From Plicaturopsis crispa FD-325 SS-3 (lineage: Eukaryota; Basidiomycota; Agaricomycetes; Amylocorticiales; Amylocorticiaceae): a stretch of DNA of 36,188 bases. The notes below the pieces were generated by a model that did not search any database, was not told the origin of the DNA, and was given only the letters and a program-made list of their open reading frames with translations. The stretch covers positions 1,236,179 through 1,272,366 of the forward strand of contig KN832563.1 of assembly GCA_000827205.1 (NCBI GenBank), in the 5' to 3' direction. The position numbers and the translations under genes are program-made. Below, one piece after another: positions 2,785 through 30,060 of the stretch. Position 1 is the stretch's first letter. Each line of letters begins with the position of its first letter.

Positions 2785-3693
2785 TTACTGGTCTTGGTCA
2801 AGGTCCATATTATCGTCCAATCCGTGTGGCTCGAGCGCATTTCCGTCAGGTTCAGTCAAAGTCATACCTGGAACACTGCTTGCAGTCCTTGTCTCGTATC
2901 TGTCTAGAGCTGCAAGTAATGCTGTGAGCTTCTGTGCCTTCACTTTGACACGAGCTTTGATTGGTACTGCGTCGCCAGCCTCGCAAAGTGCAGCCAGCTC
3001 TTGAGTCCCCAGTCCACGGGCCTCATCGTAGAGCCTATGCACAGCAAGCTGCTTGTCCAGCTCTGCAACCTTCAGCCGCAGAATTGCTTTGCGGTCAGAA
3101 ACAACGACAACCAGTGCCAATTTAGCAGCTACTGCTGCAAGGCGAACCCGTTTTTCTTCGTCCTTTGCCCTTTTGGCATCCACCACATTGCGAGCGTGAT
3201 CCACTAGTGCTTCCGTACGTTTTGCCTCAATGCCGCTCGTGTCCTCCAGCCGAGCCTCCCAAATCAGTGCCCAATGGTCGTCCGCTTCGAAACAAGCATC
3301 CATGAAGGCCTGGGTATTATTTATACAAAATGCGGCCTGGTCCGACAGGTGACTGATGGTCATGCAGGGCTTTAATCGAGCCTCGCGCCGGAAGAAGCCA
3401 AGTGCTCCCTCATTCACATCATTGGTGGTGGGCATAAACGCAGTCGCACACTCCTCCGCACTGGTGATGTCAATGTCACCACCTGTGGCGAATTCAGATG
3501 TGAAGTGCTCCCAGGTGACAAGGCTGTCTTTGAGGAAACAGACAAGGAGGGGAAGAAGGTGCTCAAGGCAGGGTGCAAGAGCGGCAGTGTGCAATGTGCA
3601 GATGTCACGGTTGGTCCATGGCTTCCCGTCGAGTGTAACAGCCGCGTATGAGCCTTCGGTAGCAAAGATAAGGATGTCGGGGTCAGCTATGAT
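2785..3693 (-). pseudogene. Interrupted host gene F, C-terminal fragment (repeat-type family, unknown function)
   Basis: About 300 C-terminal residues of the gene that E1 and E2 have split. Visible landmarks are TLDGKPWT, FTSEFATGG and TTNDVNEGALGFFR, followed by a long charged, Ala/Arg/Lys-rich helical region (EAKRTEALVDHARNVVDAKR) and an acidic tail ending DNMDLDQDQ. I believe this belongs to a large repeated Agaricomycete protein family, possibly transposase-derived; that is recollection and was not searched. The frame enters from E1 at the duplicated CTATGAT (3687-3693): residues 'II' lie on the duplication and 'ADPDIL' follow, which continues '..NHVQHII' at 15375. The frame seems to run on to about 3753 in the same direction, but that part is transposon end and not native coding sequence. 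Confidence 0.75.
3687..3693. repeat. Target-site duplication of E1, left copy (CTATGAT)
   Basis: Seven bases identical to 15375-15381. The match extends to 8 bp (GCTATGAT, 3686-3693 and 15374-15381) because the last base of E1 happens to equal the flanking base. Taking CA as the element terminus gives 7 bp. The duplication lies in codons of gene F, whose frame is continuous across it once E1 is removed. Confidence 0.85.
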
Positions 3694-3760
3694 CAGCCAT
3701 TGATGTGAGATAATTGCAAAGGAACGCGTACTATCCTTTTGTCGACAATGCAATGCAACG
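3694..3760 (+). repeat. E1 left terminal inverted repeat
   Basis: Pairs with 15307-15374 in inverse orientation. The best block is ATTGCAAA followed by AAC-CG-ACTATCC and then CAATGCAATG-AAC on both ends. Weaker similarity continues to about 3826 (TTTCGG(A)CTTG on both sides), so the whole repeat may be near 120 bp. The outer 19 bases match at only about half of positions apart from the CA start. Confidence 0.85.
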
Positions 3761-3834
3761 CGGGGATTTGATCTACAGCCAAACCGGATCTGATTAGTCA
3801 GCAGGCTAGCTTTCGGACTTGGAAATTTTCAAAA

Positions 3835-4200
3835 CCACTCTCTGGGCGCCTTTTTTGGCTTCCCAAAACGGCTCTTCAGCCCCTAAGCCTATCTGAAAGA
3901 CTTTTGGCGCGATTTCTGGCTTCCCAAAAAAGCTCTATAGCCCCTAAACTCACTGGAACACTCTTGGGCGCGATTTCTGGCTTCCCAAAAAAGCTTCATA
4001 GCCCCTAAACTCACTGGAACACTCTTGGGCGCGATTTCTGGCTTCCCAAAAAAGCTTTATAACCCCTAAACCAACTTCAACACTTTCTGGCGCGATTTCT
4101 GGCTTCCCAAAAAAGCTCTACAGCCCCTAAACCAACTTAGCGCTTTCTGGCGCGCTTTCTGGCTTTTTAAAAAGGCTCAACAGCCCCTAAGTTGGACTTG
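3835..4200. repeat. 61-bp subterminal tandem repeats of E1 (six units)
   Basis: Six units whose GGCTTCCC or GGCTTTTT landmarks fall at 3857, 3918, 3979, 4040, 4101 and 4161, a spacing of 61 bp (60 for the last). Each unit has GGCGCGATTTCTGGCTTCCC, then a run of A, AGCTC(T/A), then AGCCCCTAA. They sit just inside the left end of E1. Subterminal repeats are often transposase-binding sites; that role is inferred here. I see no matching array at the right end. Confidence 0.9.
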
Positions 4201-4533
4201 TGATTTTTTTTAACTGCGCACTCAAGTCACCACACCTTCATTTCTACCCCAAGTTCATTTCTCTCAGCTTCAACAAGTCTGAATAGAACAACCATATATA
4301 TTTTACATAGAAGTAACGAGCCTTGACATTATATAGTATATGAAAAACACGGCAAACGAAGTTTGCCGGTCCGAAAAAAATAGCAATTGCGGCGGGCCCA
4401 AGCTGCAAAGATGCGCATCAGGGATCCTAAACGCGCCTCTTTTTACGCTGCCTCCCGTCTGCGTCTGTAGCTGCGCGTTTCCTAAGTTGAGTCGTAAGGT
4501 TAGGTAGATTGGGGCCAAAAATAACAAATGAAC

Positions 4534-7331
4534 TTACGGGGATCCTCGCTCCTCCGCAAGGCGACGGTGGATGGCCCAAGAAACATCCTCTAATGCGGCA
4601 GTCCACTGGGGTGTTGCTGCATGCTCAGCATCCCTCCACCACTTCAAGCATGCCAGCACGCCCAGAAGCCCATTTTTTCCGGGGACACGTAGCGCTTCTA
4701 ACGTTCCCTCGGTGCTCTGCTTCATTGGAAGCCCGGGCCTGTCTCCATGGCGCCATGCAGGGTTGCACGAGGCCCACCACACCTCCCAGTCGGCAATGAA
4801 GGTCTTGAGATTCTTGATAGGGAGGGAGCGGGACGGATTGCGACCGCGGCTCACCCACCACACTACTTGCTCAGGCCGGCGGTGGTTTGTGAAACCCGTT
4901 ACCTTTCCAAGAGCGTATCAGCACGCGCATCAATACACTGACAATATAGAAACGTACCGGAGAAAAAAAATTGTATTCCTCCTCCAGAGCAGCCCACGCG
5001 TCAACACACAGGGACCACCCAGGCCCGTAATGTGCACTGTCGAGGAAATCCCGCGCACTCTTCATCCAGTCGGGCAGGGCTGCGACAGGCCTAGTCGGCT
5101 CAGCTGATGAAGCCGGAGCCATAGCTGGTGCTGCTGACGAAGCGAGCATCCCCGCTGCAGGCGTTAAGGCCGGGAGACCTCCCCCCACAATCCCCCCGGA
5201 CAGAGCGGAGGAGGGCTCTACAGGTCCGCTATGAGCAGGGCCTGTAGATATCCCCCCAACAGCCTCCGTGAGAGGTGGGGCTCCACTCCCGTTAGAATCT
5301 GGCGGTGGAGTGAAATCGCGCGGCGGGGAAACACCGCCGTGCTCTTGTGCAATCGGTGAGCCGTCCCGCGCATCGGCCGTTGGATGGTTCCGCGAAGAGC
5401 GCCGTAGCACAGTCGGAGCCCCATTGCTTCGGGGTCGCGGCTTGGGCCGCGGTTGTTTAGCGGGTCGACCTTCATTCCCTAGCAGACCGTCCCTTGCGGC
5501 GTCCAAGTCCAGCTGTTTCATCAACCTCTTCTGGAATGCAATGTTGCCCTCCCGCACAAACATGTGCATGGGCATGCTATTCAGCTTCCTGAGGCGGCGA
5601 GCCCTATCCCCCGCACCAAGTGCATCGAGCTCCTCCTGCAATGGAGATCCTATAGCGCGAGGCTCCGGCGTGTCTTGTGGAGGCGGAGGTGTTGACGGTC
5701 GCGGCGGGCCCGCCAATGCCGACGGAGTAGCTGGCCGCGAGGGTGCTGACGGAGTGGGCGGCCGCGAGGATGCCGACGGAGTGGGCGGCCGTGATGGCGC
5801 TGACAGCGTTGGCAGGCGAGACTGCGCCGACTGCGCCAACGGCTGTGACGGTGCGGACGCAGTCGGCGGACGACTCGGCCCCTGTGATGGCGCCGGAGGA
5901 TGAAGCAGCCCACGGGAGGCAATCTGGGCTGAGTTGAATGGCGCCTGCAGACCCCCAGCAGCCGCGCCTCCATTGACAGGCGTATCCGCCCGCGAACCGG
6001 CTGGCGTTGTATAAAAGTGCGACGATGACCCTGGGCGCGTCTGCTCAAGCATTCGCTCTAAGTCTGCATCCTCCTCGAGTGGGCAGGCAAGAGGGTTCTC
6101 TGAAAAACGCGTCAGCAATGGGCATCTTAGCAAAGGAATAGCAGCGTACCGGCCGTATCCCTTACAAACCGACTGAACAGCCCAATGACAAGTTTGTCGT
6201 AAAGCGCCGGGTTCCATTGCGTGAAGTCCTGGTTGTCCTTTGTCGTCCCAGCATGGAGGCTACGCAGTTCATGTGTCAAAACATAATCGCAGTTTAACGG
6301 GGGTCGAAACGCACCTAGTGACAAAGAAGTTTATATCCGCCTCGTCTGGCGGCGACCCCGCAAGCAGAGTCAGATTCAACCCTGTATGCGCCCGGATTCC
6401 GTCAAGAAGAGGCTGCACCACCACTGCCAGCCGCGCACGAGCCCTGAAAAATTACGGTTAATTAAGTCCAGGAAACATACAGAGCGGGGGGGCGTACTCG
6501 CGAACCATACCAGGGTCCTTAACGTCCTCAGCAAACGCCTCGGGCGTATTCTCCCATTTTTTTACCGCGGCCTGATGAATCTCGTCTACGGCCTGGTGAA
6601 TCTCCGCGCGGACTTCATCGGATTCCTCCCTGAGATACCGCCGTGCAATGTCGCACCGGAATACAAGGGCATCGTCTGGATCTCCGTTGACGGCATCCCA
6701 TGTCGCATCGAACTCAGCCGCAATACGCGCACGGTTGGGTTCGCGTGTCATGTAATAATGGTAGTCGGATTGGCGGTGGGGTGCGGTGCGTGAGCCTTTC
6801 CGCAGGCCGCGAAGCCAGTTGGTATACGGATTTCGTCGCGTTGTGTTCGTAGTGTGGCGTCTGTAGTTGTACCAGTTTTTGATTTGCTACCGTGGTGTGT
6901 CAACGACACGGTCTACTCAGGTATTAGGACAGACTCACCTCAATCTGCAGGTCTTTGGCCGTCATCTGCTTCTCCTTAGCTTTCTTGGCCCTCCTTCCCC
7001 TGCCCTTCCTCCCCTTGTCCCCCTCCTGACTGGTCTCCACTGCATGTTCACCGTCGTCCGCGTTGCTTCGGGCGGGAATCGTCTTCACCACCTCCACAGA
7101 GTCTGGCATCCCAAAGGCCCGCCAAAAGTCTGACAGGACCACCGGCCAGAATTCCTTGACCCGCTTGACGCTTGACGCATTCAAAAACTCGTCCAGGTGG
7201 GACTCCAAGAGCTTGAGCTCCTCCCCATGGAAAGCGCCCTTGTTGCCAGGCTTGCGGCGCAGCAGAGATGAGGTCGGCGCGCTGCCAGATGGGTCCTCGT
7301 GCGTAGAACCCCCATCCTCGCTGTCCGACAT
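4534..7331 (-). CDS. E1 gene A: homeodomain-like / WW-rich protein, about 843 aa, six exons
   Basis: Exons read 7331-6939, 6886-6498, 6443-6315, 6259-6150, 6099-4958 and 4902-4534. All introns are GT..AG, 50-55 bp, and the phases join into 844 codons including the stop. The N-terminus (MSDSEDGG) leads to an Arg/Lys-rich segment, then LQIE joined over the first intron to QIKNWYNYRRH, which resembles a homeodomain recognition helix (IxNWFxxRR). This is followed by a helical region, a long Pro/Ser/Thr-rich linker with PSRPPTPSA repeats (about 5700-5870), and a C-terminal domain with RPEQVVWWVSRGR, FIADWEVWWASCNPAWR and LRVPGKNGLLGVLACLKWW. Paralogue: gene C in E2, whose third exon is also exactly 129 nt. 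A DNA-binding accessory role is inferred; the function is not known. Its start faces gene B. Confidence 0.8.
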
Positions 7332-7518
7332 TGCGAATGAGCTGCTGATGTAGCTGGGTGCAAGAAATGAGCAGGGAGGCCGATGCGTGACGCTTAACGA
7401 GCGAGCGTCAAGCCCTGGTGCAAAAAATGTACGGGCGCTTTACATAAACAAACCATCCACGCGACCAACGGGCTGTTATCAACCACCACTGCACCAACCA
7501 CCATACTCCCACACGCCA

Positions 7519-8268
7519 ATGCTCATGGAACCGTACACTTGCACCCCACCTATCCACCGTCAGACTGACGGGCGAAACCGTTGGTACATTGTTACCAAAG
7601 GCCCGCATGCGGGGATCTACCAAGGCTGGTACGTTGGTTTGCTTCAACTTCCCATTTCACTTCATATTAACTCGCAATCCACGTACACAGGACAAACGGC
7701 GCGGAAGACGCCTCCCAAGGGATTCCTTCAGCGGGACATTCAAAGGTTCCCTCAGAGGAGGACGCCCGAAGGGTCTGGCGCGACTACTGCCTTGCTCACC
7801 ACTCGCATCCGGCTCCCCCTGCTTCTCCGGCTGCCCCCGCTCCCCCAGCCACCCAGCGTGTGCGCTCTCCACCCACCACACCCTCTCGCCCTCCTCTCGC
7901 TCAACCGAGATTCGACACACCGCCTCGTCGTCCTCTCTCAGCCGCCCAGCCTACTACCCCCGTGCAGCTCCAGCGGGAGGTCCGCGACTCAGCCATTGCT
8001 GAGGCGCTTGCGCAAATGGACATCGGCGCTCGCGGATCCATCCCCAGCGAGTTTCGCTATTTCGCCGTCCGCGCAGGAGACGTGCAGCGCGTGATGTGCA
8101 CCACTCGGTTAGTTTCTCCCCCGCCCTTTCCGCCGTCACCTCTGACCTCCCCCTAGGTCTAAGGCCCTCGAGATTCTACACGATCACCAAGCTCGCGGCG
8201 TGTCTGCCGAGCTGATGTACGCCCGCTCGGTGCAGGAGGCCGAGGCGTTCTTATTCTCAGAGGATTAG
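7519..8268 (+). CDS. E1 gene B: two viroplasmin/RNase H1 N-terminal-like modules, 212 aa
   Basis: Exons are 7519-7628, 7691-8107 and 8157-8268 (213 codons with TAG). Module 1 has RWYIVTKGPHAGIYQGW, an intron, then SQGIPSAGHSKVPSEEDARR, which matches the (W/H)YVV-x-G-xxxGIY-xxW...S-xx-EA pattern of the caulimovirus viroplasmin / RNase H1 N-terminal fold. That fold in RNase H1 binds RNA:DNA hybrids and dsRNA. A Pro/Ser-rich linker follows, then a divergent module 2, YFAVRAGDVQRVMCTTR joined to SARSVQEAEAFLF-like sequence. Introns fall at equivalent places in both modules. I chose the ATG at 7519 because it lies just before the domain and gives a 187-bp gap to gene A; an in-frame ATG at 7387 is possible. 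A nucleic-acid-binding role in the transposon is inferred. Confidence 0.75.
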
Positions 8269-8367
8269 CTACAGTACTTAGCGTTGTTTGCTCAATATCA
8301 ATAGCGCGTACGCGCCCTTTCTGTGTTGAACTACGGGCAAGCGCGCAAACATATGGATTCATCTCAG

Positions 8368-9022
8368 TCAAACATAACAGGCTAGAAAGTCAGCGCGACG
8401 CGCTATACCGACATGCAAGAGGCCCAGCAGATGCGAAATAAGATAGGCATGGAGCTGCCTTGAGTCAAGCTGCCTCACCATCTGCCACCGTACGAATCCC
8501 TCCAAGAGCCGCTCCCCCTCTGCTATCTCCTCCTCTAACTGGGATGCCCATGCACCCGCTATCCCTGCCTCCACTGCCTCCTGGTGCTCCATGTCGAGTG
8601 CTGGAAGCCAGCGCGACGATCCGCTTTCACGGAGGTTAGCCCAGCTCTCGATGGCGGCCATGACAACCCGCGAGCTGGATTCCTCCGTGAACGCCGCCGA
8701 GACTCCCCTCGGTGGCTCGGGTGGGCAGCAGATACCGCAGAAGGGGTCGCGATGGGTGCTGCGGCATAGGCATCCCTGATCGCGCCTCCTATTGCAAACG
8801 CTAAGTCAAGATATGCACTGCATAGGCACCCTACGCACCTTTTGCACCTCTCCTTGACGTCTGAGATACGGGCCCGTCGATTTCTAGAGAGGAATCGCGG
8901 TTAAACCTAACACTACGAAGGGGTGGAAACACAACGTACTTCAGGTAATACTTTGCGCATGCATCGCGATGGGACTCGGCTTGCTCCTCCTTAGAAAGCG
9001 TCTTTTTTTTAGATTTGGGCAT
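8368..9022 (-). CDS. E1 gene E: small basic N-terminal / helical C-terminal protein, 182 aa
   Basis: Exons 9022-8940, 8883-8839 and 8788-8368 join into 549 nt (183 codons). Introns are GT..AG, 56 and 50 bp. The N-terminus is highly basic (MPKSKKKTLSKEEQAESHRD, then YYLKNRRARI, then KERCKRRR), a layout I recall from short Agaricomycete proteins of unknown function. A cysteine-rich patch follows (CLCRS, then FCGICCPPEPP), then a helical, Glu-rich C-terminus (QLEEEIAEGERLLEGFVRWQ). It could bind nucleic acid through the basic patch; this is inference. It sits between gene B and TET1, converging on B with 99 bp between stops. No copy is visible in E2, where the matching stretch (22470-23711) is empty. 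Confidence 0.65.
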
Positions 9023-9398
9023 GCGTGTAGGAATAGAGAAAGAACGACCCAAGACAATAGATGTTGAGGAATGATTGAGATGTAGAGGAAGGCCAATGAG
9101 GGTGCTGAGCAAAGTGAGAAGCCCGTGCGGTGTGAGAGAAACGAGAAACGCGAGCATCTGCCCGGGTGATTTGCGATGATTTGCGATAATTTGCCGCACT
9201 GACTTTTCTGACTTTGAATAATGAACGCGTCAATGATTTGTATAGCTGGCTTTTCTACATGTCAAAGATTTGTATAGGCTCATCCTTAGTTAGGCTGGTT
9301 GCTAGTGTTCACTTGTAATATTTGCTACTCAATTTTGGCAAGGGCAACGGAAACGCTCAAGTGCGCAAGGCATATTGTTATAAACGCATACATAGAGT
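9023..9398. other. Intergenic segment between gene E and TET1 with short repeats
   Basis: No gene seen. Two small direct repeats are present: GATTTGCGAT-type units repeated at about 9169-9195, and a 16-mer TCAATGATTTGTATAG / TCAAAGATTTGTATAG at about 9230 and 9268. They lie upstream of gene E (minus sense) and could be promoter elements. There is no independent support for that. Confidence 0.4.
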
Positions 9399-11196
9399 CT
9401 ATATAGTCTTTTGAAACTCGGATAGCGTAGAAAACATGGATAGGCCCTTCTTCCACCTCGTCGCGCGATCCGCAGCGCGCTGCTGGGCGGCTTCAGCGGG
9501 ATACGTCCCCGCCGCAATCTCCTCATTGATGGATTTATCGGTGCGGAACCCGTTGTATACCCAACGGAAAAGGCCACCTGCGCAATATTGAGTGAATGAA
9601 TACCGAGTCTCACCAGGCCTGATGGACGTGTTTGAGTGCTTCAGAACTGCCGAGGGAATAAGAATGGTGGCCCCGGGCGGGAACTCGATGACGAGCCCAA
9701 GGTCCCACAGCACGAAGTGGCCGCCGAGGGTGTGGTCAAACCGCCCAAGGGCCGTGATAGCGCACCAGCCGTAGGATACATTGCCGTGGTCGATGTGTGG
9801 GTAGCATATGGTGTTGGGCCCGAGGTTGAACGTCGCGGCGGGGAAAATGCTGTACTTGAAGTTTTTGCGGAGGAGGGGGTTCCACGCCCACAGCTTGCCC
9901 ATTGTGTCGGTGTACTGCTCCGCAGATCGCGGTGCAAACATCTGGAATGCGCCTGTGCGGAGCTGTTAGTGGGGCAGCAGGGAGGGGCGGCGCTGAACTC
10001 ACGGCTTCCAAACCCAGCAAGGCGCTGGATGGAGGGGCTGGCGAGAAGGAATGCAACGGCGGTGGCGAAGAAAGCGGGGATGTCGAGGTTCTGTGGTTTT
10101 TTCTGGCCGCCGCCGAAGGAGACGCCGGTGGCAACGGCATTGAATTCGCCGCGGCGGTGCTCTCCGTCGAAGGAGGGCGGCGGCTGGAGAGCCTCGGACT
10201 GCTCTTCGAATTCGTTGGTGGCGGTGGCGATGAGGTCCCTGAAGGTCTGGGTGCGCGGGCAACCCGCGAGCATGCCGAGCACAGTGCCGTCAGCGCCGAC
10301 AACGGGCCTTGGTCCCCTAGCGTGGAGGTTAGTGCTGCAAACGCACGCGGGGGTAGGCGTACTCACTGGCCATCCCAAGACACCTTCCGGAAGTTGAACG
10401 GCGCCTGCGTCAACTCCAGCGTGGTGTACTCGCGCTTCTCCGCCTCCTGCTCCGGCTTAGGAACCCTCTTCCCGATCCAACCGCCCTCTGCTACCCGCCC
10501 GTCGGACCATCCAGCTTTCGCGGGGATGGGTGTGGCTGCGGCAGCCCTTTTGCGAATCGCGCGAGTGGCGGTGGCCTTCACTCCGCGCGTGCGACCCTCC
10601 TGAGCGGCTGCGGTTTCGCGGAGATGACGGCGCCGGTCCTTGTTGCGCCGGCTGTAGCGCCCCTTGGACGAGCCAGCGGTCTTCTTCTGCGGAGAGGCGG
10701 GGGGAGAGGGCAGCCGCGGCGGCGAGGGGAGGGCGAGCGGAGTGGTGAAGATGCGCGAGGGGCTAGGCGAGGGGGGAGGGGCTGGGTACACGTCGTCAAT
10801 CGCCTCCTGTCGCGCTTCGCGGGCTAACTCCTCCTCCTGCTGGTCCTGCAAGCGCTCCGCGAGTTGGAAGTTGGAGGCGGGGTAAATGGGCGGGCCCATG
10901 TTTTGGAGCGGGGGCTCGTATGGAGAAAATATGGTGCCGCGACGCGTGATTCGACCTGCAAAGGGGTGTATTAGCGTGAGTGCTGGCGGTGGTTGGACGG
11001 TGTTCTTGATGGTGCCAGCGACGGCAGTCCTTTCTGCTACCCAAGGTCGAGCTATCGTACTCAGACCGTCGCGCTGGCACCGTGGCGACGAGCGCATCAG
11101 CCTTTCTGCTACCCAAGGTCGAGCTATCGTACTCGGCTGATGGCTGCGTCTGCAGAGGGTGGCTAGGCGCATGGGAGGGCTTATAAAGAGACTCAC
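9399..11196 (-). CDS. TET1: TET/JBP-like 2-oxoglutarate, Fe(II)-dependent dioxygenase
   Basis: Exons 11196-10367, 10316-10003 and 9952-9399 (introns 50 bp each) join into 566 codons. The TET/JBP family oxidises 5-methylcytosine or thymine in DNA, in the nucleus. The metal site is readable: CYPHIDHGN gives the HxD pair (about H434 and D436), LKHSNTSI the distal His (about 487), and RYSFTQYCAGG the Arg (about 498) that contacts 2-oxoglutarate. Upstream blocks VATGVSFGGGQ and RLAGFGSR are shared with TET2. The N-terminal third is low-complexity, Pro/Ser- and Arg/Lys-rich. The start is uncertain: ATGs at 11196 and 11172 lie in a region with a 34-bp direct repeat and a TATA-like motif at about 11182, so initiation could be internal, near 10900. 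It is divergent from KDZ1 and intact. Confidence 0.88.
11029..11134. repeat. 34-bp perfect direct repeat in the TET1 5' region
   Basis: The 34 bases at 11029-11062 recur exactly at 11101-11134, 72 bp apart. In TET1 sense each copy would encode STIARPWVAER, so the 72-bp step preserves the reading frame. It lies between the divergent TET1 and KDZ1 genes. It may be leader or promoter sequence instead of coding, depending on the true TET1 start. Confidence 0.9.
11182..11187. promoter_or_regulatory. TATA-like box in the TET1/KDZ1 divergent region
   Basis: TATAAA on the plus strand (CTTTATAAG on the minus). It lies 196 bp before the KDZ1 ATG. On the minus strand it falls at the most upstream TET1 ATGs (11196, 11172), which argues that TET1 translation starts further in. 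Support is by motif only. Confidence 0.3.
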
Positions 11197-11382
11197 CGAA
11201 CATTTGCAAAGAAACGCGGGGGAGGGCGGTGTGAGGATGCAAAAGTGGCGGTGGGCGAACTTTTTTACTTATGAATCGCGGTCACATGTGGCTGAACTTC
11301 AAATTTCCCACAGTCGCGCTAGCCGCGCACCCTGTGCTTACGGTACTGCTGGCAGCCGCGTCTTCGCCTGCCACCGCGCTCG

Positions 11383-14300
11383 ATGTCTCTGCGGCGCAAG
11401 CAGGCTAAGACGATCCTCCGCTCCCATGTTCACACTGTATCTCTAGGCGATGTTTACGGCGTCAGCACGCCTCACACCGTTCAGCGCACGTCCCTGGATA
11501 ACCGCCGAACCTTTTCGGACCGCCAGCAAGTGCGCTTGCCGCCCTCAAAGCGCCCTCGAGTGGCCGAACCAACGGTACCGGCGGTGGGCCAGGAGGTCGA
11601 GGACGCGTTTACGGTGGCAGGGCTGGAGGGTGCGGATGCGTTGTTGAATCGCATTGAGGTGTCGGATGTCCGAGCAAAGCGCTATGCGTCCTCGGTGAGT
11701 AGTAACCTACGGGTGGAAAATTTCGAAAACTCACAAGACCATCCCAGGACTCCCCTCTCAAGCAGTGGACGCCGCACCGCGACGAATACCTGGCCGAGTT
11801 TCTGCGTCGCGAGGGTCGAGGGTATTTCACGGCGGATCGCTGCCCTGCATGCCCAACGGACGGGCCTGCGGGTGCGGCTCTCTACCGGTGCCTGGACTGC
11901 TCATCGCTGGAGCTGCTGTGCAACCGATGCTGTGTCGCCGCTCATGCGCGGCACCCGCTGGATTGCATTGAGGTGCGTTACCTCTACCTTCGCTGTGTTG
12001 TACCCGCCTAACCCATCCTTGTAGAAATGGACAGGGTCGTGCTTTGTGCGATCGTCGCTGAACGCGCTGGGCCTGCGGGTCCAGCTGGGCAACCACGCCC
12101 GCGATCGGTGCAAGAACCCCCACCCAGCCAGTGATACGTTTACGGTGGTGCACACGACTGGGATCCATCGGGTTGCCGTCGACTACTGCCAGTGCGCTGA
12201 CGCTGTCGATGCGGGTTTATACCGGCAGCAGCTACTGCGCTTTGGGTGGTACCCTGCCACGCACGACCTCCCCGGCACTGCGTGCACCTTTCGCATGCTA
12301 GAGCACTTCCATCTGGCGACGCTGCAAGGAAAAATTTCGGCCTACGACTACTATGGCGCGCTGGAGAAGCTGACTGATAACACGGGTCTCGAGCCATGCC
12401 CAGTACGTCCTCGCGTCTTTGCTTATGGGGGGGGATGAGCTAACCGTACCGCATCGCAACCAGGACCGGTACCGGGCGATTTTACGCATCATACGCGAGT
12501 GGAGAAACCTCAAGATGCTCAAGCGTGGTGGGCGAGGGCACGATGAAGCCGGGGTCGATGGGACGCAGCCTGGCGAGCTGGCTGTAGTGTGCCCGGCGTG
12601 TCCCGACGCTGCCGTCAACTTGCCGGAGGGTTGGGAGAATGCGCCAAAAGAACAAGGGTACGCCGCACGTCCATTTTTCAACACTCGCGGCCTGGTATTA
12701 ACGGTCCTTATTAGGTTTCTCTACCGGCTATTTGTGGCGTTTGACGCTTGCTTTCGGCTCAAGCGCCGAATTGTGTCCAGCGAGCATCGCGACCCCGGGC
12801 TGGGCTGCGGGTGGTCCTATTTTGTGCCCGATGCAATCTACCGGAGGTACATCGCCACGCAGGGGGAACAAAAGGAGGTGAGCAGAGGTGGTTGTGTACG
12901 CTGTTTGTCGCGCTAACTGAGGGCTTAGATTAACACCTGCACAGGGCTATCGGCGGTAGACCACGCCAACGATCGATTGCAACGCGGATACGCCTCCACG
13001 GCGGCGGGGTTGGGCTTATGCTCGCGGCACGAGTTCATCGGCCGCAACGCTGTAGTTGATCTCCAGAAGGGAGAAAGGTATGTAGGCGCTTTTCATCAAC
13101 CGCTCCATGGCCTCACCAGCTGTGCACAGGTATTGCAATATGGACTGGGCGTTTGCATCCATGTTCAAGCACCAGCACCCTCGGCAGCCAACCGTTGTTT
13201 CATACGACATTGCGTGCCAGTGGCACCGTAACCTCGAGGCGCGGCTCGCTGCTCTCCCCCGCGTCGTTCGGCTCGTTATCCCGTCGGAGATCTTCTGGTA
13301 CGCGATCCCCAAGCTGCACATCCACTCCCACATCGTCAAGTGCCAGATCACGTACTCCTTCGACTGGCTGGCTGGTGCAGGGCGCACGGATGGCGAGGGG
13401 ATTGAGCGGGCGTGGGCCAACATGGGCCCTGTCTGCACAAGCACCCGGGAGATGGGGCCTGGGTCTCGGCATGACACCCTGGACGACCATTGGGGTTACT
13501 GGAATTGGCAGAAGCTGGTGGGACTGGGTGAGTGGCAGTCCTTGGAGTGTAGGCCTTATACTAACGCAAATCCATAAGGCAAATCACTCAAGAAGAAGCT
13601 GGTCTCGGCGATTCCTGAGCGCCTTAAACACCAAGCCGCGTTCGACGCATTCACGGAGTCCCAGAACGCTGCGGACGTTGCGGAGTGGCGGGCCATGGTT
13701 GTGGATTTCGAAGCTGACGGCAGCAAACCCAACCCATACCACCTACCCAAGTCGGGTCTCACCGAGGCCGATGTGCGCCTCAACCTCGCGCAACATGACG
13801 CCGAGCTGGCAGCTGCCGGCGCCCCTTCCCTGCACAACGTCAGCCCAAGCGGGTTTATAGTTGCAGGCCTGGATCTCGAAGAGCAGCAGTACGTATTGTA
13901 TTCAGTAATCGTGGCGGTACATTGCTAACAAGTTTTACAGACGGCATATCCGGATTGAGGCCTCAGGTCCGTGGGCTCCTACCCAGCCAGAGGGTCTCGA
14001 AGGCGCACGACTGCGGACGAGCCTCACGAGTACGCAGGAGACCGACATCACACAGCTCCGCACCCGGCTAACGCGGAATATTGCGCGATTCCGAACACTT
14101 CAGGCAACGTATATGCCTGCCGCCCTACAGCGCCTAGCCGCAGTCCCGCCTTCGCAATCAGTTCAGCAGCCCGAGGACGAGCCGTTGTACCTCCCATCAG
14201 CGCTGTCGCCGGATGAGCGTAGGGGATGCACGGCTGGCCTAGGGGAGATTGAAGACAGGCTGCGGGATGCCCAATGCGCTTCTGCACTGGACCGGCTACG

Positions 14301-15126: not shown

Positions 15127-15306
15127 TAATATATATCGAGCAAAAACAAATTTTTATAGATCTTTTCGCAATGCAGTACGCTACGGGAATGAGCCCGAGG
15201 AGGCCAGGATGGTGGGCATTGCATTTCAATGTCCGAACGGGTTGTAGAGGATGCCGAGGACGCTTACAAGCCGAAAGTTTGGTTGGTGGCAGTGTAGCAG
15301 AATATC

Positions 15307-21000: not shown

Positions 21001-21085
21001 TTCCTCGGAAGGTGGACTTGCGGCCAGGCGGGGCGGCAGGCTTTTTAGATAGGATGGTTTTGACACGAGTATTTCTTTTGGCCAT
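18076..21085 (-). pseudogene. E2 gene C: decayed paralogue of gene A
   Basis: Exons 21085-20738, 20680-20253, 20200-20072, 20018-19906, 19849-18687 and 18636-18076, with introns of 50-57 bp and consistent phases. Like gene A it has six exons, the third exactly 129 nt. Recognisable parts: LKISQWYRHHYKK (homeodomain-like helix), YVLQPFADLMTERFG, TVHSGLT (gene A has SLHAGTT), an acidic/Pro-rich linker with PTPAVAP repeats broken by a run of N, DWGRDWELCLRRF, and a WEWWLAVQP C-terminal block. Two in-frame stops break it: TAG at 20984-20986 and TGA at 18514-18516. The TGA stands where gene A has the Trp of FIADWEVWW, consistent with TGG to TGA. Its start faces gene D, as A faces B. Function unknown; DNA binding is inferred. 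Confidence 0.75.
19142..19304. other. Assembly gap (163 N) inside a tandem repeat
   Basis: The flanks are the same 18-24 bp coding repeat (PTPAVAP and variants, minus strand), so the gap is most likely a collapsed or unresolved repeat. The number of repeat units and the reading frame across it cannot be known from this sequence. Confidence 0.95.
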
Positions 21086-21212
21086 GGCTATACGGACAGA
21101 GGCTTGCACGGATCGAGCGGTGCAGTGCGGCGAGGCAGAAACGGAAAGTAAGTCCGGGGTCCGCGCACCCACATGACTCATTTCCTTTCCGAAAATTTCC
21201 AACTGGGATTCT

Positions 21213-21220
21213 TATATAAA
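21213..21220 (+). promoter_or_regulatory. TATA box upstream of gene D
   Basis: TATATAAA about 54 bp before the gene D ATG (21274), in the 188-bp divergent space between C and D. The position is suitable for a short-leader transcript. Motif evidence only. Confidence 0.45.
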
Positions 21221-21273
21221 CCTGCACCCCAGCATTCCTCTCTTTCTTTCACGACCCCATCATCTCCTCTGCG

Positions 21274-22469
21274 ATGGTATCGCATCGTCCCCATACCCCA
21301 CCTTGTCCTCGCAGGTCGTCGACTTCCTCTTCATCTACTCACTCCTCCTCCCACTCCTCCCCTTGCTCCTTTGTAACCGCTTCCTCCTCGTCGCTGCCCT
21401 CAATTGCCCACTCCCGCTCTGTCTCCGGTAACTCCAGTACATCTTATGGCACGGATGATGACCTGGTCGCCGCGATGACGACCGCGTGGGAAAATGGTAA
21501 GTCTTCGGTTGTCGCAGCCCACGTCCAATCTCACCCGTCGCCAAGGACTCGATGACCCGCCAGAGGAAGAAAAGAAGGCCTCGCCTACCGCGCCTGCCCC
21601 TCCTAATTCTTCCGGCTCCCCCCCATTCTCGTCGAAGGAGTTGCTGCAGGACGAGGGTGAGTCCTTCAGTCTCACAGCACCCCAGTCCACCTCCCGCAAA
21701 CAATATGCTGTGTCGTCTGGTACGACGGTGGGTGTCTTCAAGCATTGGTGAGTACAGTGTGATATTTTTATGTTCCCGGCCCTCACGACGCTCACAGGTA
21801 TGAGGCAGGCAACCATATGCAAGGCGTTCCCGGAGGCCAGGTGCGGAGTATGCCACCTGTTTCTCCTCCTACGACGCCCAGGCGGCGGCGGAAGTCGCAT
21901 TACGTCGTTACGCGCGGTCTTGCCCCGGGTATCTACGCGGATTGGTAAGTTGTCGCCAGGTAGCACCTGGTACCCACCATAATTGATCATCTAGGCCTGC
22001 GTGTGAGTGGCAAATCAAAGGTGTTTGAGGGGCCCTACAGCAAGGCTACGGTAGTCTTTGCGACGCACAGAATGCTTGGCAGCTGGCTATTGAGCATGGT
22101 GTCGTTGACACCATTGACGTTGAGGGCCGTGTATTGAGTACTAGTGACTGGTCTGTCCGCCGGGCTCCCACCCCGCCCTTGGCGGCTTCGGCGCCGTTGC
22201 TGCGTTCCGCCTTGAGTTGGCCCTCGTCCCCTAGCGACGCGCAGTGGATTGTTGTCTTCGCCGGCCGTAAACCCGGCATCTATCCCAACTGGTAAGTCTG
22301 CTCTTGTAATGACCGACACGAGGTTAACACCTACGTTAGGACGCTTGCAGGTCCCCAAGTACATGGCGTCAGTTGTGCTAACTTCACTAGTTACGAGACG
22401 GAGAGGAAGGCATGCATTGCCTTTGCAACGGCTCAGCGGGACGGCTTTGTTCATGTTCGGACGGATTGA
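21274..22469 (+). pseudogene. E2 gene D: three viroplasmin/RNase H1 N-terminal-like modules, stop codon in module 2
   Basis: Exons 21274-21496, 21546-21747, 21798-21944, 21995-22291 and 22340-22469 (333 codons). A Ser-rich N-terminus is followed by module 1 (QYAVSSGTTVGVFKHW | YEAGNHMQGVPGG), module 2 (HYVVTRGLAPGIYADW | PACEWQIKGV, stop, GALQQGYG) and module 3 (WIVVFAGRKPGIYPNW | TLAGPQVHGVS, then SYETERKACIAFATAQRDG). The vertical bars are introns, and all three split the same conserved Trp codon as TG|G. The in-frame TGA is at 22026-22028, where a serine (GVSGA) would be usual. Otherwise all phases hold. Gene B in E1 is the intact two-module relative. A hybrid- or dsRNA-binding role is inferred from the fold family. 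Confidence 0.75.
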
Positions 22470-23711
22470 TTTTATGTAGTCATGTTTTTGTTGTTTTGTG
22501 CACTCGTACTGTCGTTGCAATGTTATTTTTTGCACCTTTACAGTCCTAACCCTAAGTTAAGGTTCGTTGTGCTTGTGCAGTGACTGCAAAGTGGCGTACC
22601 TGCGTTGCTTTATAGTAGCGTACCCGACTCGCTTTACTGATATTCTGTAACTTATTGTGCATGTAGTTGACTACATGTACGACACTGGGGCAATTCTTTG
22701 TTGTATTTGTGAACTCTGTGAATGTAATGCCACTAAAGGCATGGTGCCGACATACATGATAGTTGAGATCGACGTAGGTTGAGATTGATTCAACGGTACA
22801 CCGCACACATTGCCTGCATAAGATCGCGCGGTAAATTCATACACCATGCGCAAAGGCAAATGCAATATGGTTGAATATATCATCGAAGCACTAAGTTGGC
22901 TCGTAGATAATATTCAGGATGCTATTCTACAAGCCAGTCCATTCACTGAGCTCGAGTGGCTGCGAGTCTTTGACCGTCCAACTCCAGTTCAATAATTATG
23001 TTGAATCGCAATGAGATGGTACCTGACAATATATCTAGTTCGCCGGTACGCATATCGCTGTTGCACGTCCCCAGCACGGACGACTCAAGACGGTCAAAGT
23101 GATTCCACCAGAAGGATTTTAGAATTCTCAGTCATGCGCTGCACAGATGAGTTTGGGCGTCGTGGGCGTATAAATCACTGAGTAAGGTAAGTATACTTCC
23201 CTCTTCCCTTAGGGATAATGTTTCCACCCCAACTGAGTACTACTGACATCCTTCCCAGCTTGATAGCTAGTATATCTGTCACTGGTCGCGGATCCGCCAC
23301 CTTGACGAAACAGGCAACAGGGACTTTGTGTGACCGCAAGTTTGCACATTTTCAACCGCTGTTTCTTTTTCTTTCTCAACTTTCACCCTAGTTCTTCACG
23401 GTCACTCTCTTTCAACACTCCACTCTCGTTCAACACTTTCTTATCGACACGGTGAGTCTGTCTCTTCCCTTTCTATTTCCTGTGCTCAAATCTCGCGTCG
23501 AAAGCCTTTGGGGCCTCTCCAAGGCCCTGCTGGTTGGACGCGCGAGTCGTCGTACTTTCTCTTTGTGCGGGAAATGGTTATAAGACTCCCGCGCCGAATA
23601 CCTTTGGGGTCTCTCCAAGGCCCTGTTGGTAGGACGTGCAGGTCGAGCCTTTTTTCTTCTGTATGTTGCTATTCAACTTTGACTGACACGCTCCCGATTC
23701 TACGCAGATCC
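22470..23711. other. Spacer between gene D and TET2, including a probable 5' leader intron
   Basis: No gene seen; there is no counterpart of gene E. A probable leader intron of TET2 runs from GTGAGT at 23452 to CAG at 23707, four bases before the ATG. Inside it are two copies, 96 bp apart (about 23505-23542 and 23601-23636), of CCTTTGGGG-CTCTCCAAGG followed by CCCTG-TGGT-GGACG. A TATAAAT motif at about 23169 may belong to TET2. Confidence 0.45.
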
Positions 23712-25500
23712 ATGGCCTCCCGGACGCGCGTAAGTAGACTCCGTCGTGACGCTTGACCTCGCTGACCATGCTCTTTACACCAGACGCGCACAGGACGCAA
23801 GTATAGCGCGTACTCGGAAGCTCCGTGCATCCACACTTCAGTAGACGTGGGGGTACTCTTGCAACGCGCCCTGGCCGAAGAAGACGCGCGTTATGCGAGG
23901 GGTGATGACAATACGGAAGGCCAAGGTTTTGATCATACAACCACGCCTCCCCCAACACCCCTCCTTCCTTCGCTGCCGCCGTCACCGGTTGCCGCCCCGC
24001 AGGCGCTTCCTCCACTCACGCCCTCAGAGGACCTTCTAGGCCTCTCCCATCTTGATCCACCTCGTGCGCGCAGTATGTCCCCTCTTTCGGACCTTACCGA
24101 CCTTAGCCTTTTGGACGACGAGCCTTTCTCGATGATTAACAAGGATCGTGCCGCCTCTAGGCATACAAGCCGCTCGTCGCGTCCTGGGAGGAGAAAATAC
24201 AAGGCCGAAAAGCGGGTGGAGAAGCGGCGCAAGCAGCGCAAGGAAGCGGGCGCGCTGCCGAACCTGTTTGCATACAAGACGCGATCCTCCTTGTCCAAAA
24301 AGTACAGCAACGTTCCCGCCATCCGGACCGCTTTCGACGCCGCCAAGCTCCATACCGCACGCGGCTCCTACGTAGGCTTACGGCTGGAATCGATCCGTCA
24401 AACGCCGTGGAAGCTATTTGAGTTGTTACGGCGAGGGTTTAAGGTGGTGAAATGGGATGGAAAGTACGTCTGTCCATGTGCTTTCACGCCGTTCTCTTGC
24501 TTACAGTGCTGCTAGATCTGTGCAGCTTGTCCTGGATGCGAACGGCAAGATCATCGTTATTCTCGCCAGTGAGCCAGTGGACACCGACTGGAGTGGCGTT
24601 GTCAAGACCGTGACGCAAGGCTTTGTGTCGGCTCGCGACGAGGGTCGCCGCTTCTTTAAGCCAAAGCAGCTCCATCACCGCCGAGGGAACTTCATTGCGC
24701 TTGCCTCGGGCGTCTCATACGGCGGCGGGCAAAAGGTATGTGCCCTCGTATAGTGCTCCGTCGCTGCTCCTCACCAAACGTGCAGGCTCCGGGCAACCTC
24801 AAGTCCTCCAAACAAGAGTGGTGCCTCCTCGACCGCTTACTTTGCAACGAGGGTGTTCGGCGCATGGCCGGCTTCAGTAGTAGTGCGTACTTCATTGTCG
24901 CTCCGTTTTACTGGTTCTGACAAACATCGTGACGCAGGCATCATGGTGTACTATGCCCCAAAACTGTTCAAGGACTACACGGACAACTGAGGGGCGCTGT
25001 ACGCGTATGACAAGTCCCTCAAGTTGAACTTTCCCAATAGTGTTTTCCCCGCCGCCACTTTCAATCTCGGACCTGAGTCGGTTAGCATCGACCACGTCGA
25101 CTCGGGCAACATCGCAAACGGCATGTGCCCAGTGCACAGTCTGGGGCGCTTCGACTACACGAAAGGTGGCCACCTTATTCTATGGGACCTTAAGCTTGTC
25201 ATCGAGTTCCCCCCTGGATCCACCATTCTTCTTCCTTTGAGCACCTTACGCCACGGAAACACCACTATTCAGGAGGGGGAGGAAAGGATGAGCTTCACAC
25301 AGTATTGCGCGGGCGGGCTCATCCGCTGGGTAAAGTACGGTTTCCGATCGGGAGTGTCCCTCGAAGAAACCGCCGCAGGCCGTCGGTTCAAGGCGCGCGT
25401 CGACGGTGACCCCGATGTGCGCTGGCGCGAGGCCTTGAACAAATTCTCAAATAGGGATGAGCTGGTCCGGGACAGGGAGGATGTTTTCGGTGCTGACTAG
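23712..25500 (+). pseudogene. TET2: TET/JBP-like dioxygenase with one in-frame stop
   Basis: Exons 23712-23729, 23784-24463, 24507-24735, 24786-24882 and 24938-25500 give 529 codons with consistent phases. The N-terminus is RTR/RTGRK-rich, then disordered and basic (KAEKRVEKRRKQRK). The middle has LASGVSYGGGQK and MAGFSSS, as in TET1. The catalytic domain keeps its ligands: SIDHVDSGN (HxD), LRHGNTTI (distal His) and RMSFTQYCAGG (Arg). A TGA at 24988-24990 (after DYTDN) lies just before the catalytic core and would remove it. Unless it is read through or an assembly error, the enzyme is not made. Unlike TET1, it lies in the same direction as its transposase, 210 bp upstream of KDZ2. The chemistry assigned to the family is oxidation of 5-methylcytosine. 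Confidence 0.82.
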
Positions 25501-25710
25501 CTGCCCGAGTTTCTTGTTATTAGCTACATGTAATGATACTTATTGTGATATATAAGTACTGCGTTCTGTCTTGTCGATCGCGACGGTGAAAACACAGGGA
25601 GTGTCATAAACGCGCCACAAAATGCTAAGTCCCACTCCACGTGGCTTGGTAGAAGTTGCAAGCGCCACGCTGTGCCACGTCATCTTCAGTCTTTGAACCA
25701 TCATGCATAC

Positions 25711-28700
25711 ATGAGCCGCCTCAGGCCTCTCACTCAAGGGAAAAAGCGGAAAGCTGAGGTTTTTGACCTCGCCCCTGCACCTGCTATCGAGCGCTCAATT
25801 TCGGTGTCCGACGACAACAGGCGGATCCGGACGACTATCACTCGCGTTCGTACGGCCAACGAGCCTGTTGGCGCGTCTTCCTCGGCCTACAATCTTCCAT
25901 TAGACTCCGAATTCCATGACTCTACTGCCGACTTGGGCGACGCCCTGACCGAGGGGGAGCACGTAGTGGAGCCGGAGCATGAGGGCTTGGAGGGCATGCG
26001 AGTTATTTTGGTGGTGCGGGCGAAACACTATGAAAACTCGGTGTGTTTCTTTTTTTATTTGTGCTTTACCTTGCAGACCTCATAAGGACCATGCTCTTAA
26101 GGATGCGCTTCTGAAAACTTGGACTGGTTTTCGTGACCAATATTTGGACGAATGCATGCGGCTTGAGGGTAGGGGGACACGATGTCGAACCGTCTGCCCT
26201 CATTGCCCCACGGAAGGGCGAGAAGGTGTTATTTGTTGCCGGAACTGTTTTAACGGCGGCATGATGTGCATTGAGTGCATGATAGAGCGTCACCGGCACC
26301 TTCCTCTGCACATAATCGAGGTGTGTCTTTCGTCGTCTTGTTAGGTTCATGTCGCTAATTTCCGTGCATGACAGCATTGGAACGGATCGTTCTTCCAGCA
26401 TATTTGGCTGCACGATATCGGCCTGCGCCTTCAAATGGGCCACGAGGTCGGAGAGGGATGCCCCTTCAAAAAGACTGGTCCTCAAGCGTTTGTCGTGTTG
26501 CACACGAACGGGATTCATTACGTCGGCGTGGATTTCTGCAAATGCCCAGGACAAGGACCCCCTCATGTACAACTTCTTCGTGCATCCTGGTGGCCGGCCA
26601 CCCCCCTGGAAAAGCAAACGTGCGCCACGATGGCCGTCCTCCGTCAATTCCACCTCCTCAATCTGCAAGGGAAAATCTCCGCCTACGACTTCTACCGCGC
26701 GCTTGAGAAGCTGAGCAACGGGTGGGGGTTGAAAAAACTTCCGGTGTGTATCTTCTCTCAAGGCTCCCATATCAATACTTAACGTTCTTTAGGACCGAAT
26801 AAGCCCGTGGATGATAATGATACGGGAGTGGCACCACAATCACGATGACCAAACGGGCAGGATGCGGGCTGGATCCCACTGGGATCCTCAGGACGTCGCA
26901 AGGGGAGCTAGCGGTTCCTTGTCGCGCATGCCCGTTGCCGGGCGTCAACCTTCCGGAGAACTGGGCTGATGCACCAAAGGCTATGGCGTAAGTGGCATGT
27001 CCTCACCACTCGACACTCGCTTACATGGCTTGTAGATATATTTACCGGTTGATCCTGGCACAGGACGCCTGTTTCCGGTTTATGAATCGCATGCGATCGA
27101 CCGAGAAAGCAGATCCGTCACTTGGCCCTGGATGGGCATATTTTCAGGAGACCTCCGCGTATTCCACGTTCCTCAAGAACTACACGCACGACAAGGAGAT
27201 TAGCACTTGCGTGGCATTCACAGCCCTTATGCTCGCCAACATGAAGCGCACCAAGGGTGTCGCATCAACAGGTGTGGGGGGCGTCAGTTGTGGGCGGCAC
27301 GAGACGTTCAGGGCAAATGGGTTGGGGGATCTGCAGAAAGGCGAATGGTACGTCGTCGGCTGTCTCCTCATAATCGGCGTCAACTAATTCACTCGGTAGG
27401 TACGCAAATATGGATTACATATTCTTCTCGTCAATTGTCGGTTGCGCCCTCCTCTATCTCCTTGTCTCCTACAACGTTGCCTGCCAGTGGAGCAAAAATT
27501 TTTGGTCCCGCATGGAGAAGACCCCGGCGCGTCTTCGCCTCGCTATGGAGCCCGCCAACGTCACGTTTGTCGTACCTGCCTTCCACATTGAGGCTCACGA
27601 ATCCAAATGCCGCAACCGTTACAACTCACGGCGGACCAAAGGGACGGGCCGCTCAGACCTCGAAGGGCCCGAGAGGCTTTGGGCATGGTTGAAGGGTGCC
27701 GCCGCGAGCACTCGGGAGATGGGTCCAGGGCATCGGCGTGATACCCTCGACGACTTTTGCGGGTACGCAAACTGGTTGAAAATAATCGGGTTTGGTGAGT
27801 GCCTCCTCTGTTTGTGTCGAAGCTTACTGATTTATTGACCAGGTAATCTATTCCTTCGACGCATGCTAGAGGCAATTCCGGAGGCACGCGCACATCGCCA
27901 AGTGTTCGAGGACTTCAAGGAAGGGTTACGCGCTGAGCAACCAGGCGCCGTGGAAGCCTGGGAGGCCATGCTTGCCCTGTGGGAAGGTGATCCCACTCAG
28001 CCTAACCCGTACGTTGCTGGGGATTCGGATGGTGAGTAGCGCATCGATCCTCGTGTTCGGCGGTACAGTTACTGACAATGACTTGCAGAGCCTACAATGG
28101 CCGACGTTCGGCTTGCCATGGCTCAAGAGGAGCAACAACGGGTGGAGGTGGGGGCGCTTAATATGCACGACTCCACGCCGGCAGCCTTTCTGCTGCTGGC
28201 TTTGGAAATCGAGCTTGTGCAGTGAGTATCTGCATGAATGATGCATAAATGCGTGCTGACCATTTTCGTACAGGAACACCATCGCTGCGGAGGTACGAGC
28301 TGCGGGACGAGAGCCAACGCCGCTTCAAATGGCGGGTATCCAAGACCGTCGGAACGCTATACTCAAGAAGATTCGCCGCATGCGCGAGCTGCAAGCTATA
28401 TACATGCCGCGCTTGTACGACTACCTGCACCCCGAGGGCGACCAATACAATGAACGCAACGGTGTTCTCGTAGAGAACGTCCGCCTCCACCTCCCTTCCA
28501 GTTTCAACGCCGTGGCACGCACTCAAGTGTGCTTGGAGGGTCTTCTTGCCATGGAGGAACGCCTACGGTTGGCTGAGACATCGGACGCCCTCGACGAGCT
28601 TTGCCGCAACATTCAGACCCGCTCGTTTGTGCACAAGTTCCGCATCTCGAATAGGACCGGCCAGAAGCGCGCGACGCGCACGCAGACGCTCATCAACGGG

Positions 28701-29459
28701 GTTCAGGTGCGCCTCACTGCCACCAAAGTGCGCTACCGCCGCGCCCGCGCCGCCTATCTCGCTCTCCACAGACCTGGGGAGTGGGAGAACAAGTTCCACA
28801 TCCTCAGGGACAAGGACGTTGTCGGGGCAAACGGGCAAGCCGTCGAGAGCATGGAGGAAGAGGGCAGTGCACGCGCGCTCGCGGCTGTCAACCTCCCAAG
28901 GGATGCTCTTTCATGAGCACGCGCAGCCATCGACGCGCGTATGGACCCTCTTCGGCCAGACGGCGGCCGTCGCCGCCTCTCGTGGATCTGGTTCTGTGCC
29001 TCCTCTACTGGAGACGCAAACGTCGACGAGGAGTTGCATGACGGTGAGTTATCATTCACCAATGGCATCGTATCCAGCTGATCGCTTTTTACAGCACTAC
29101 GAGTTGAGTGGGCCAAGGCCAAGGCCCGTGCCGAACGCTGGCACGAGGAGGTAGTGCTGCTCAATGAAGAAATGTGTTGTGTCATCGCCTTTTGTCGCTG
29201 GAAGGCAGACTGGTGGGCTGTTCAAGGCAAACACCGCGAACACACGACCACCCCCGAGCTTTATGAAGGCATCCAGGCGTACGCATCCGAGCATGCCAGC
29301 ATGGAGCGTCGGATGGTGTCGACGCTCGAGGCAAAATGGAAGAGTGTTCACAAATGCGCCGTAGCTGTCATCGAGGGGGGGGACGTTCGGGAGTTCTCAC
29401 CCAATGACGGCACCGTTGAGGTGGAGATTCCCCTGGATGAGGGGCTCGAGGACGAGTAA
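25711..29459 (+). pseudogene. KDZ2: decayed KDZ transposase (frameshift, stop, catalytic Asp to Asn)
   Basis: Exons 25711-26040, 26087-26320, 26375-26743, 26793-26987, 27036-27347, 27400-27794, 27843-28031, 28089-28221, 28274-29043 and 29095-29459. The CxC2 cluster is present (CPHCPTE, CCRNCF, MCIECM, RHLPLHII). Three lesions are visible. First, exon 4 is 195 nt against 194 in KDZ1 and the frame jumps by +1 near 26838, after REWHH. Second, the second catalytic Asp (SYDIACQW in KDZ1) is Asn, SYNVACQW (AAC, 27473-27475). Third, TGA occurs in frame at 28914-28916. First Asp (27064-27066) and Glu (27671-27673) remain. Exon 5 (312 nt) equals KDZ1 exons 5+6 (163+149), so an intron differs. An upstream ATG at 25672 is also in frame. 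Confidence 0.88.
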
Positions 29460-29696
29460 CGGGTGGTTTTTTGTTTCAGGTACACGCGGTTGTTCCGCGG
29501 AAATTGTCCCGCTTACCCCGCATTCAATTTTGTGGCCCCCCGTAGTATTTTTGCAATGCATGTATTTTTGGATCTCGCGATTGCATATCTTATCAAGCCC
29601 AAACGGTCTGTACATGGGGTTGAAATAGTCGAACAGCCGAGTCTTAGTCAGCCTTAGGATTGCAAAGGGTGCAGGGATTTACTTTTTTGGTAGGGA

Positions 29697-29810
29697 GAGA
29701 GGCATTATAATGTGCCAGTAGGCTTAGTGGCCAGTGGCTTACTGGAGAAATTGCAATGCGCGATGCAGTAAATAATGTGTCACATTATAATGTGGGTACA
29801 TCTACTGGTG
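29697..29810 (-). repeat. E2 right terminal inverted repeat
   Basis: Inverse partner of 17320-17432. It ends in CTGGTG on the plus strand. The palindromes CATTATAATG at about 29703 and 29783 have counterparts at both positions in the left end. Confidence 0.82.
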
Positions 29811-29817
29811 GTTGCGC
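29811..29817. repeat. Target-site duplication of E2, right copy (GTTGCGC)
   Basis: Identical to 17313-17319. It is the end of the N-terminal fragment of gene F on the minus strand. Confidence 0.82.
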
Positions 29818-30060
29818 AGCACAAAGCTGCAGATAAATGCGCTCGAGTTCTGCGCGATCTTTGGTGTTCTTGCGCTCCGACGCAAACAGGAGCGCACACA
29901 ATTCCAAGAGCTCCAGCTGGAATAATTCAACGGCTGATTTGGAGGCAGAGGAGCGCGTAATCTTGCGCGTAGAGGCAACAACCGACGCCGCCAGGATGGG
30001 AAGGTCGGGGATGTTTTCTTTATTGCCGTTCGAAGGAGCCGCATCCATACAATGGGGCAT
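29811..30060 (-). pseudogene. Interrupted host gene F, N-terminal fragment
   Basis: Starts at ATG 30060 (or 30048, in frame) and runs 250 nt to the E2 junction. It is Asn/Glu/Lys- then Ser/Arg-rich (NGNKENIPDLP, TRKITRSSASKS), followed by a leucine-rich helix (VELFQLELLELCALLF) and ELERIYLQLCAAQ. The frame ends one base into a codon, and 17312 supplies the other two, so LQLCAAQ continues into QLLVGVCATLDASL. An apparent continuation of the frame to 29785 is E2 sequence. A 14-bp duplication around the start (CCATTGTATGGATG, about 30042-30071) provides the two candidate ATGs. No promoter is identified. Confidence 0.7.

Follow-up and report, generated by a model that had tools for sequence, protein, structure and literature searches.

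The window analysed here, a stretch of 36,188 nucleotides, is contig 10:1236179-1272366 of the 33.2-Mb genome of Plicaturopsis crispa FD-325 SS-3 (Amylocorticiales). It holds a minus-strand gene in three pieces, which are parted by two large elements named A (3694-15374) and B (17320-29810). Positions are those of the window, and C1, C5, C9, C12, C23 and the like are contigs of the same genome. The gene pieces, the elements and the duplicated target sites lie as follows.

2785..3693, minus strand: gene piece 3, with the TNDVNEG motif holding the putative catalytic Glu, the C-terminal helices and the TAA end; the second copy of duplication A lies within it
3687..3693 (left) and 15375..15381 (right): target duplication CTATGAT of A, exact over 7 bp
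3694..15374, plus strand: element A, a Kyakuja-like KDZ transposon, 11,681 bp, CA..TG termini
15375..16616, minus strand: gene piece 2b, with the first two putative catalytic Asp, a Cys/His motif and one copy of duplication A
16617..16673, minus strand: intron, 57 bp, the C1 and C12 relatives having a gap of intron size at this point
16674..17319, minus strand: gene piece 2a, with a coiled coil and a helix-turn-helix-like region (judged from the structure of a relative) and one copy of duplication B
17313..17319 (left) and 29811..29817 (right): target duplication GTTGCGC of B, exact over 7 bp
17320..29810, plus strand: element B, a Kyakuja-like KDZ transposon, 12,491 bp, CA..TG termini
29818..30060, minus strand: gene piece 1, codons 1-81, with the KEN...STR-ITR N-terminus, matched by the C12 copy (a single exon over query 10-292)

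With one copy of each 7-bp duplication retained and the 57-bp GT..AG intron (16673-16617) removed, the minus-strand segments 30060-29818, 17319-16674, 16616-15375 and 3686-2785 join into 3033 nt, a single frame of 1011 codons. The initial annotation had proposed one gene in three pieces with its frame kept, and the peptides across both junctions read as it claimed. Its 1,011-codon frame stands in length and phase, with one correction: apart from its terminal stop the frame contains a TGA, codon 677 (15475-15477), which had been overlooked. Most relatives read HPY at this position and align there without a gap, by which an intron around the TGA is ruled out. At 92 conserved columns, the TGA column being unscored, the window copy differs at four (88/92 kept), mid-range among 62 relatives of at least 480 amino acids, and all five candidate catalytic residues are kept. 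Apart from the TGA no sign of long decay is seen at these columns. The few departures and the retained candidate catalytic residues suggest that the gene probably lost its integrity fairly recently. Part of its middle piece is 100% identical to a 360-amino-acid partial hypothetical protein of P. crispa FD-325 SS-3.

Both junctions are crossed by an uninterrupted relative. At junction A such relatives come from several Agaricomycetes and from metagenomes. The copy on C12 runs uninterrupted over both junctions: a single exon, 30% identical, covers query 10-292 with the KEN...STR.ITR stretch, and the next covers 298-974; in a separate genome search its match to query 28-293 has an expectation value (E) of 4.9e-21. 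An uninterrupted homologue over both sites, the check proposed with the three-piece gene, is thus in hand. The N-terminus is poorly conserved in the family, and piece 1 alone, compared with 10 database relatives, gave no clear homology, its score being reached by 16 to 295 of 300 shuffles. As the database relatives are uninformative for piece 1, junction B rests on the C12 copy, the duplication and the element borders. How far the SR(R/W)TV motif lies from the first Met was also considered as support for junction B and was dropped, being too variable among relatives: the distance is 269 in the joined frame and 264-274 in P0004, P0005, P0009 and P0020, and it is 257, 245, 199 and 35 in P0029, P0023, P0021 and P0008.

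The ends of both elements are defined to the base. Exact 7-bp duplications border A and B, as had been reported; at A an eighth base matches too, by chance, through the last G of the element. The inverted repeats of the initial annotation are present in both elements, and they are subterminal, starting at base 20 in A and base 18 in B:

3713..3785: 5' subterminal inverted repeat of A, from base 20, its partner equally far from the 3' end
17337..17391: 5' subterminal inverted repeat of B, from base 18, its partner equally far from the 3' end

For A and B each, the local alignment score of the inverted repeats is reached by 0/500 letter shuffles with 100-bp ends and by 1/500 with 40-bp ends; the alignments omit the outermost 17-19 bp, after which the strong subterminal repeats follow. 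The borders are confirmed by other copies in the same genome that share them. The first 2507 bp of A are matched 15 times in the genome; 12 of these matches (its own included) start at the identical base and 3 are internal, and the first 190-200 bp recur at 11 other places with the same start base. The last 385 bp of A have 16 matches, of which 15 (again with its own) finish at the identical base and one ends inside. All A-type copies whose ends could be paired by nearness carry exact 7-bp duplications (7/7, own included). On contig 9, a relative of B shares its start and end positions, with AAGATAG on both sides, so that 7-bp duplications are present at A, at B, at six other copies of A and at the C9 relative of B.

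Further observations concern these copies, the elements themselves and their surroundings. On contigs 34 and 43 the 3' ends of the A type have a common flank and may be one copy, and two A-type copies, C19:52575-57360 and C19:60159, lie ~2.8 kb apart on contig 19, another small cluster. A frame of 265 codons over the empty site of the contig 34 copy is not counted as a gene; it has no Pfam match and no database relative, and its PDB matches are at chance level (best E 0.13). Just inside the 5' end of A (3845-4190) a 61-bp unit stands in five to six tandem copies. The stretch 17543-17723 of B recurs elsewhere in the genome, whole at 3 places and in a ~46-60 bp part at 6, with 69-88% identity. 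Outside A and B, tandem arrays with 53/106-bp and ~30/31-bp units flank the interrupted gene at 819-1221 and 30921-31964.

Four gene regions lie within the two elements.

9402..9965, minus strand: 2OG-Fe(II) dioxygenase-like open reading frame of A, weak Tet_JBP match (E 0.033, under the cut-off)
11745..14991, plus strand: KDZ transposase region of A, CxC2 cluster at 12058-12387 (Pfam CxC2, 7.9e-43), similar to that of B
24991..25497, plus strand: 2OG-Fe(II) dioxygenase-like open reading frame of B, weak Tet_JBP match (E 0.02, under the cut-off)
26099..29348, plus strand: KDZ transposase region of B, Pfam CxC2 1.5e-41, KDZ 7.3e-19 and 1.7e-37

In A the KDZ domain (PF18758) is matched at contig 10:1249306-1249683 (E 7.9e-36, 127.6 bits, over the cut-off); among its translated frames the start of KDZ is under the cut-off (8.7e-5), and the other frames of A are under it or unmatched. 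The transposase of B has an in-frame stop at 26989-26991 where A stays open; B may be inactive or may have an intron at this stop. On the plus strand the two transposases resemble each other in seven stretches, with 28-46% identity. Such identity in the matched stretches argues that A and B are, by sequence, separate insertions of different Kyakuja-like families, and the earlier claim of two separate KDZ insertions with both transposases on one strand is borne out by this and by the KDZ and CxC2 matches. That both lie on the plus strand is, for two elements, a coin toss. The dioxygenase-like frames are 51% identical to each other and are oppositely oriented relative to the transposase. Neither has BLASTP similarity to one clear Tet_JBP protein of the genome (L076), and when both are aligned with three clear Tet_JBP proteins there are invariant H, D, H and R columns.

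Iyer et al. reportedly counted Kyakuja transposons in the KDZ group in 2014. The ends, the duplications and the gene content point to an affiliation of A and B with Kyakuja. In the portions of Kojima 2025 (PMC12730594) to which all comparisons here refer, Kyakuja elements have 7-bp duplications and 5'-CA..TG-3' termini, and two Laccaria families are described without terminal inverted repeats (TIRs). A and B share with these elements the 7-bp duplications, the CA..TG termini, a KDZ transposase, a dioxygenase-like gene and an Agaricomycete host. They differ in that their dioxygenase matches Tet_JBP weakly and that Amylocorticiales lies outside the five host orders of that work; their dioxygenases may be the distant type named PE there. 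The KDZ1-3 elements of Cryptococcus, in what is reported of them in PMC12810828, were caught inserting in FRR1, and they are comparable as KDZ elements of ~9-11 kb caught inserting in one gene; unlike A and B, they have TIRs of 139-241 bp, duplications of 4-8 bp and CxC1.

The interrupted gene belongs to a family of the Agaricomycetes. By predicted structure this family matches the transposase of Hermes, a hAT element. The predicted structure of a relative has a Hermes-like RNase H fold with a helical insertion. In 63 aligned rows, counted where a letter is present, the putative catalytic columns are D in 57/57, D in 60/61 and E in 53/56, and the C-x2-H columns are C in 62/63 and H in 63/63. 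The D, D, E and C-x2-H of the family we take to correspond to the Hermes residues, by aligned range alone, and the catalytic roles of D, D and E are putative. The family is patchy across Agaricomycetes, with several members in some species; relatives among viral contigs were not found. A kinship with KDZ was considered as well, and no match emerged when the family was compared by profile to 11 KDZ segments (probability 0.2%).

Relatives on C1 and C12 are two-ended transposons of 4.1 kb, with an open transposase, perfect 14-bp inverted repeats (TGGGCTTGGGCAAT) and 7-bp duplications. Three short pairs with the same TIR and exact 7-bp duplications, 1.0-1.5 kb in length (C1:586416-587936, C10:211155-212149 and C14:739774-740775), are probably non-autonomous copies. 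Duplications are thus 7 bp in 5/5 TIR pairs and not the 8 bp of hAT; hAT variants with 5, 6 and 7-bp duplications have been published (Kojima 2025, PMC12730594). Like hAT with Hermes as the reference, the family has a predicted RNase H fold with a helical insertion, conserved D, D, E and C-x2-H, and short TIRs. Unlike hAT it has no recognised hATC or BED domain, and it has a long N-terminal coiled coil, 7-bp duplications and the TIR given above. By description it resembles hAT7 of rust fungi in having a hAT-type transposase and 7-bp duplications; hAT7 was assigned by transposase similarity (same paper, in the portions named), whereas the present family is unrecognised by the Pfam hAT models.

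Since the interrupted gene is itself transposase-like, the locus is very probably a transposon nest, in which two Kyakuja-like KDZ elements sit inside a hAT-fold transposase gene or transposon copy. This nature of the gene was missed in the initial annotation. A copy of a ~4-kb cut-and-paste DNA transposon, or its transposase gene, would have been present first, encoding a transposase with a hAT (Hermes) fold and a long N-terminal coiled coil. Two different ~12-kb Kyakuja-like KDZ transposons would then have inserted independently. Each would have been excised and joined into a staggered cut of 7 bp, whose gaps would have been filled in to leave the 7-bp duplication. The duplications suggest such a cut-and-paste mechanism, as does what is known of DDE transposases in general. 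The putative catalytic Glu lies on the far side of insertion A from the two putative catalytic Asp, so that A alone would end the transposase, and insertion B severs the first 81 codons.

Several observations weigh against this interpretation. For the interrupted gene, the fold was predicted on a relative and not on the window protein; the whole-chain TM-scores of Foldseek to Hermes are low (0.15-0.23 by query length, root-mean-square deviation 17-21), and the good Hermes alignment (VIA) takes in part of the chain. No hATC or other Pfam hAT domain was seen among 25 listed of the 48 families matched by 43 members (E<=1). The hATC model PF05699 has 13 matches in the genome, none at the places of the hAT-fold family, and the sole PDB chain picked up by sequence with the family profile is a keratin (E 0.35). 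Four scans for TIRs of the window copy itself gave no candidate above shuffles, and no duplication was found around it; the C1/C12 TIR with at most 3 mismatches occurs 5 times in the window against 4.3 expected, which is chance level. For the elements, the subterminal inverted repeats, 18-20 bp inside the ends, are unlike Kyakuja as described without TIRs in those portions of PMC12730594, and the ends of A and B have no likeness to each other beyond chance.

That no TIRs or duplication were found at the window copy, together with its well kept family-conserved residues, would also fit a stationary, domesticated host gene derived from a transposase and killed by two KDZ elements. The members on C5 and C23 are similar in this respect, with no TIRs within ~1.5 kb. 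Such a history is unlikely in view of the C1 and C12 members, which are transposons with TIRs and 7-bp duplications, of the three short TIR pairs that resemble non-autonomous copies, and of the patchy spread of the family across Agaricomycetes, some species having several members.

Two hits in one gene might instead reflect a preference of KDZ elements for this family as a target, as was initially suggested. At least 43 KDZ matches, grouped by hand, make ~31 places in the genome, and the figure of 49 roughly allows for copies in which KDZ is not matched; with 31 to 49 uniformly distributed insertions, 0.05 to 0.14 pairs are expected within 1.94 kb, the spacing of A and B before insertion. The double hit is therefore a mild coincidence, a further point against the nest, unless transposons cluster; clustering in transposon-rich parts would raise the expected number of close pairs. 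The data on other copies point away from a preference, which we regard as very improbable. None of the four other family members found in the genome (0/4; C1, C5, C12 and C23) is interrupted over its matched parts. The six other two-ended A-type copies are on other contigs, none at the places of the hAT-fold family, and the nine Kyakuja-like duplications that were read on both sides (CTATGAT, GTTGCGC, AATCCTG, GTCGCGC, TTCAATG, GGGCAGG, ACTTGCA, TGGCAGC and AAGATAG) have no common motif by eye. A dispensable transposon copy can take insertions without cost, and no target preference is needed; the data agree in this sense with the other suggestion of the initial annotation, a tolerated landing site, tolerance in a dispensable copy being taken as enough. 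Least credible of all is an assembly artefact, in which pieces would have been misjoined by scaffolding or haplotype collapse: element B does contain an assembly gap of 163 N (19142-19304), but the duplications are exact at both sites, the borders recur in other copies and the frame runs on across both sites.

With the locus read as a transposon nest, the relatives of the interrupted gene may, with somewhat less than even confidence on our part, represent an undescribed lineage of DNA transposons found throughout the Agaricomycetes. Its proteins, annotated as hypothetical, would have a hAT fold in which no hAT domain is recognisable by sequence, and a long coiled coil at the N-terminus. Its copies, of 4.1 kb with an open transposase or of 1.0-1.5 kb and non-autonomous, would be flanked by 7-bp duplications and, in one subgroup, bear the TIR TGGGCTTGGGCAAT. 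Among the literature matches listed, a scope outside which most subscription journals fall, no title or beginning of an abstract describes this locus or the hAT-fold family.

The apparent host gene that was hit twice is very probably a transposase gene; in fungi rich in transposons, apparent disruptions of genes should be read with caution. Exact ends and 7-bp duplications are now available for two Kyakuja-like families in Amylocorticiales, an order not listed in the portions of Kojima 2025 (PMC12730594) referred to above. We consider the hAT-fold lineage, a so far unnamed kind of element, the more interesting find than the double insertion. A widespread family of hypothetical proteins is brought out as a lineage of transposons with a predicted hAT fold, and its two-ended copies make its mobility directly testable.

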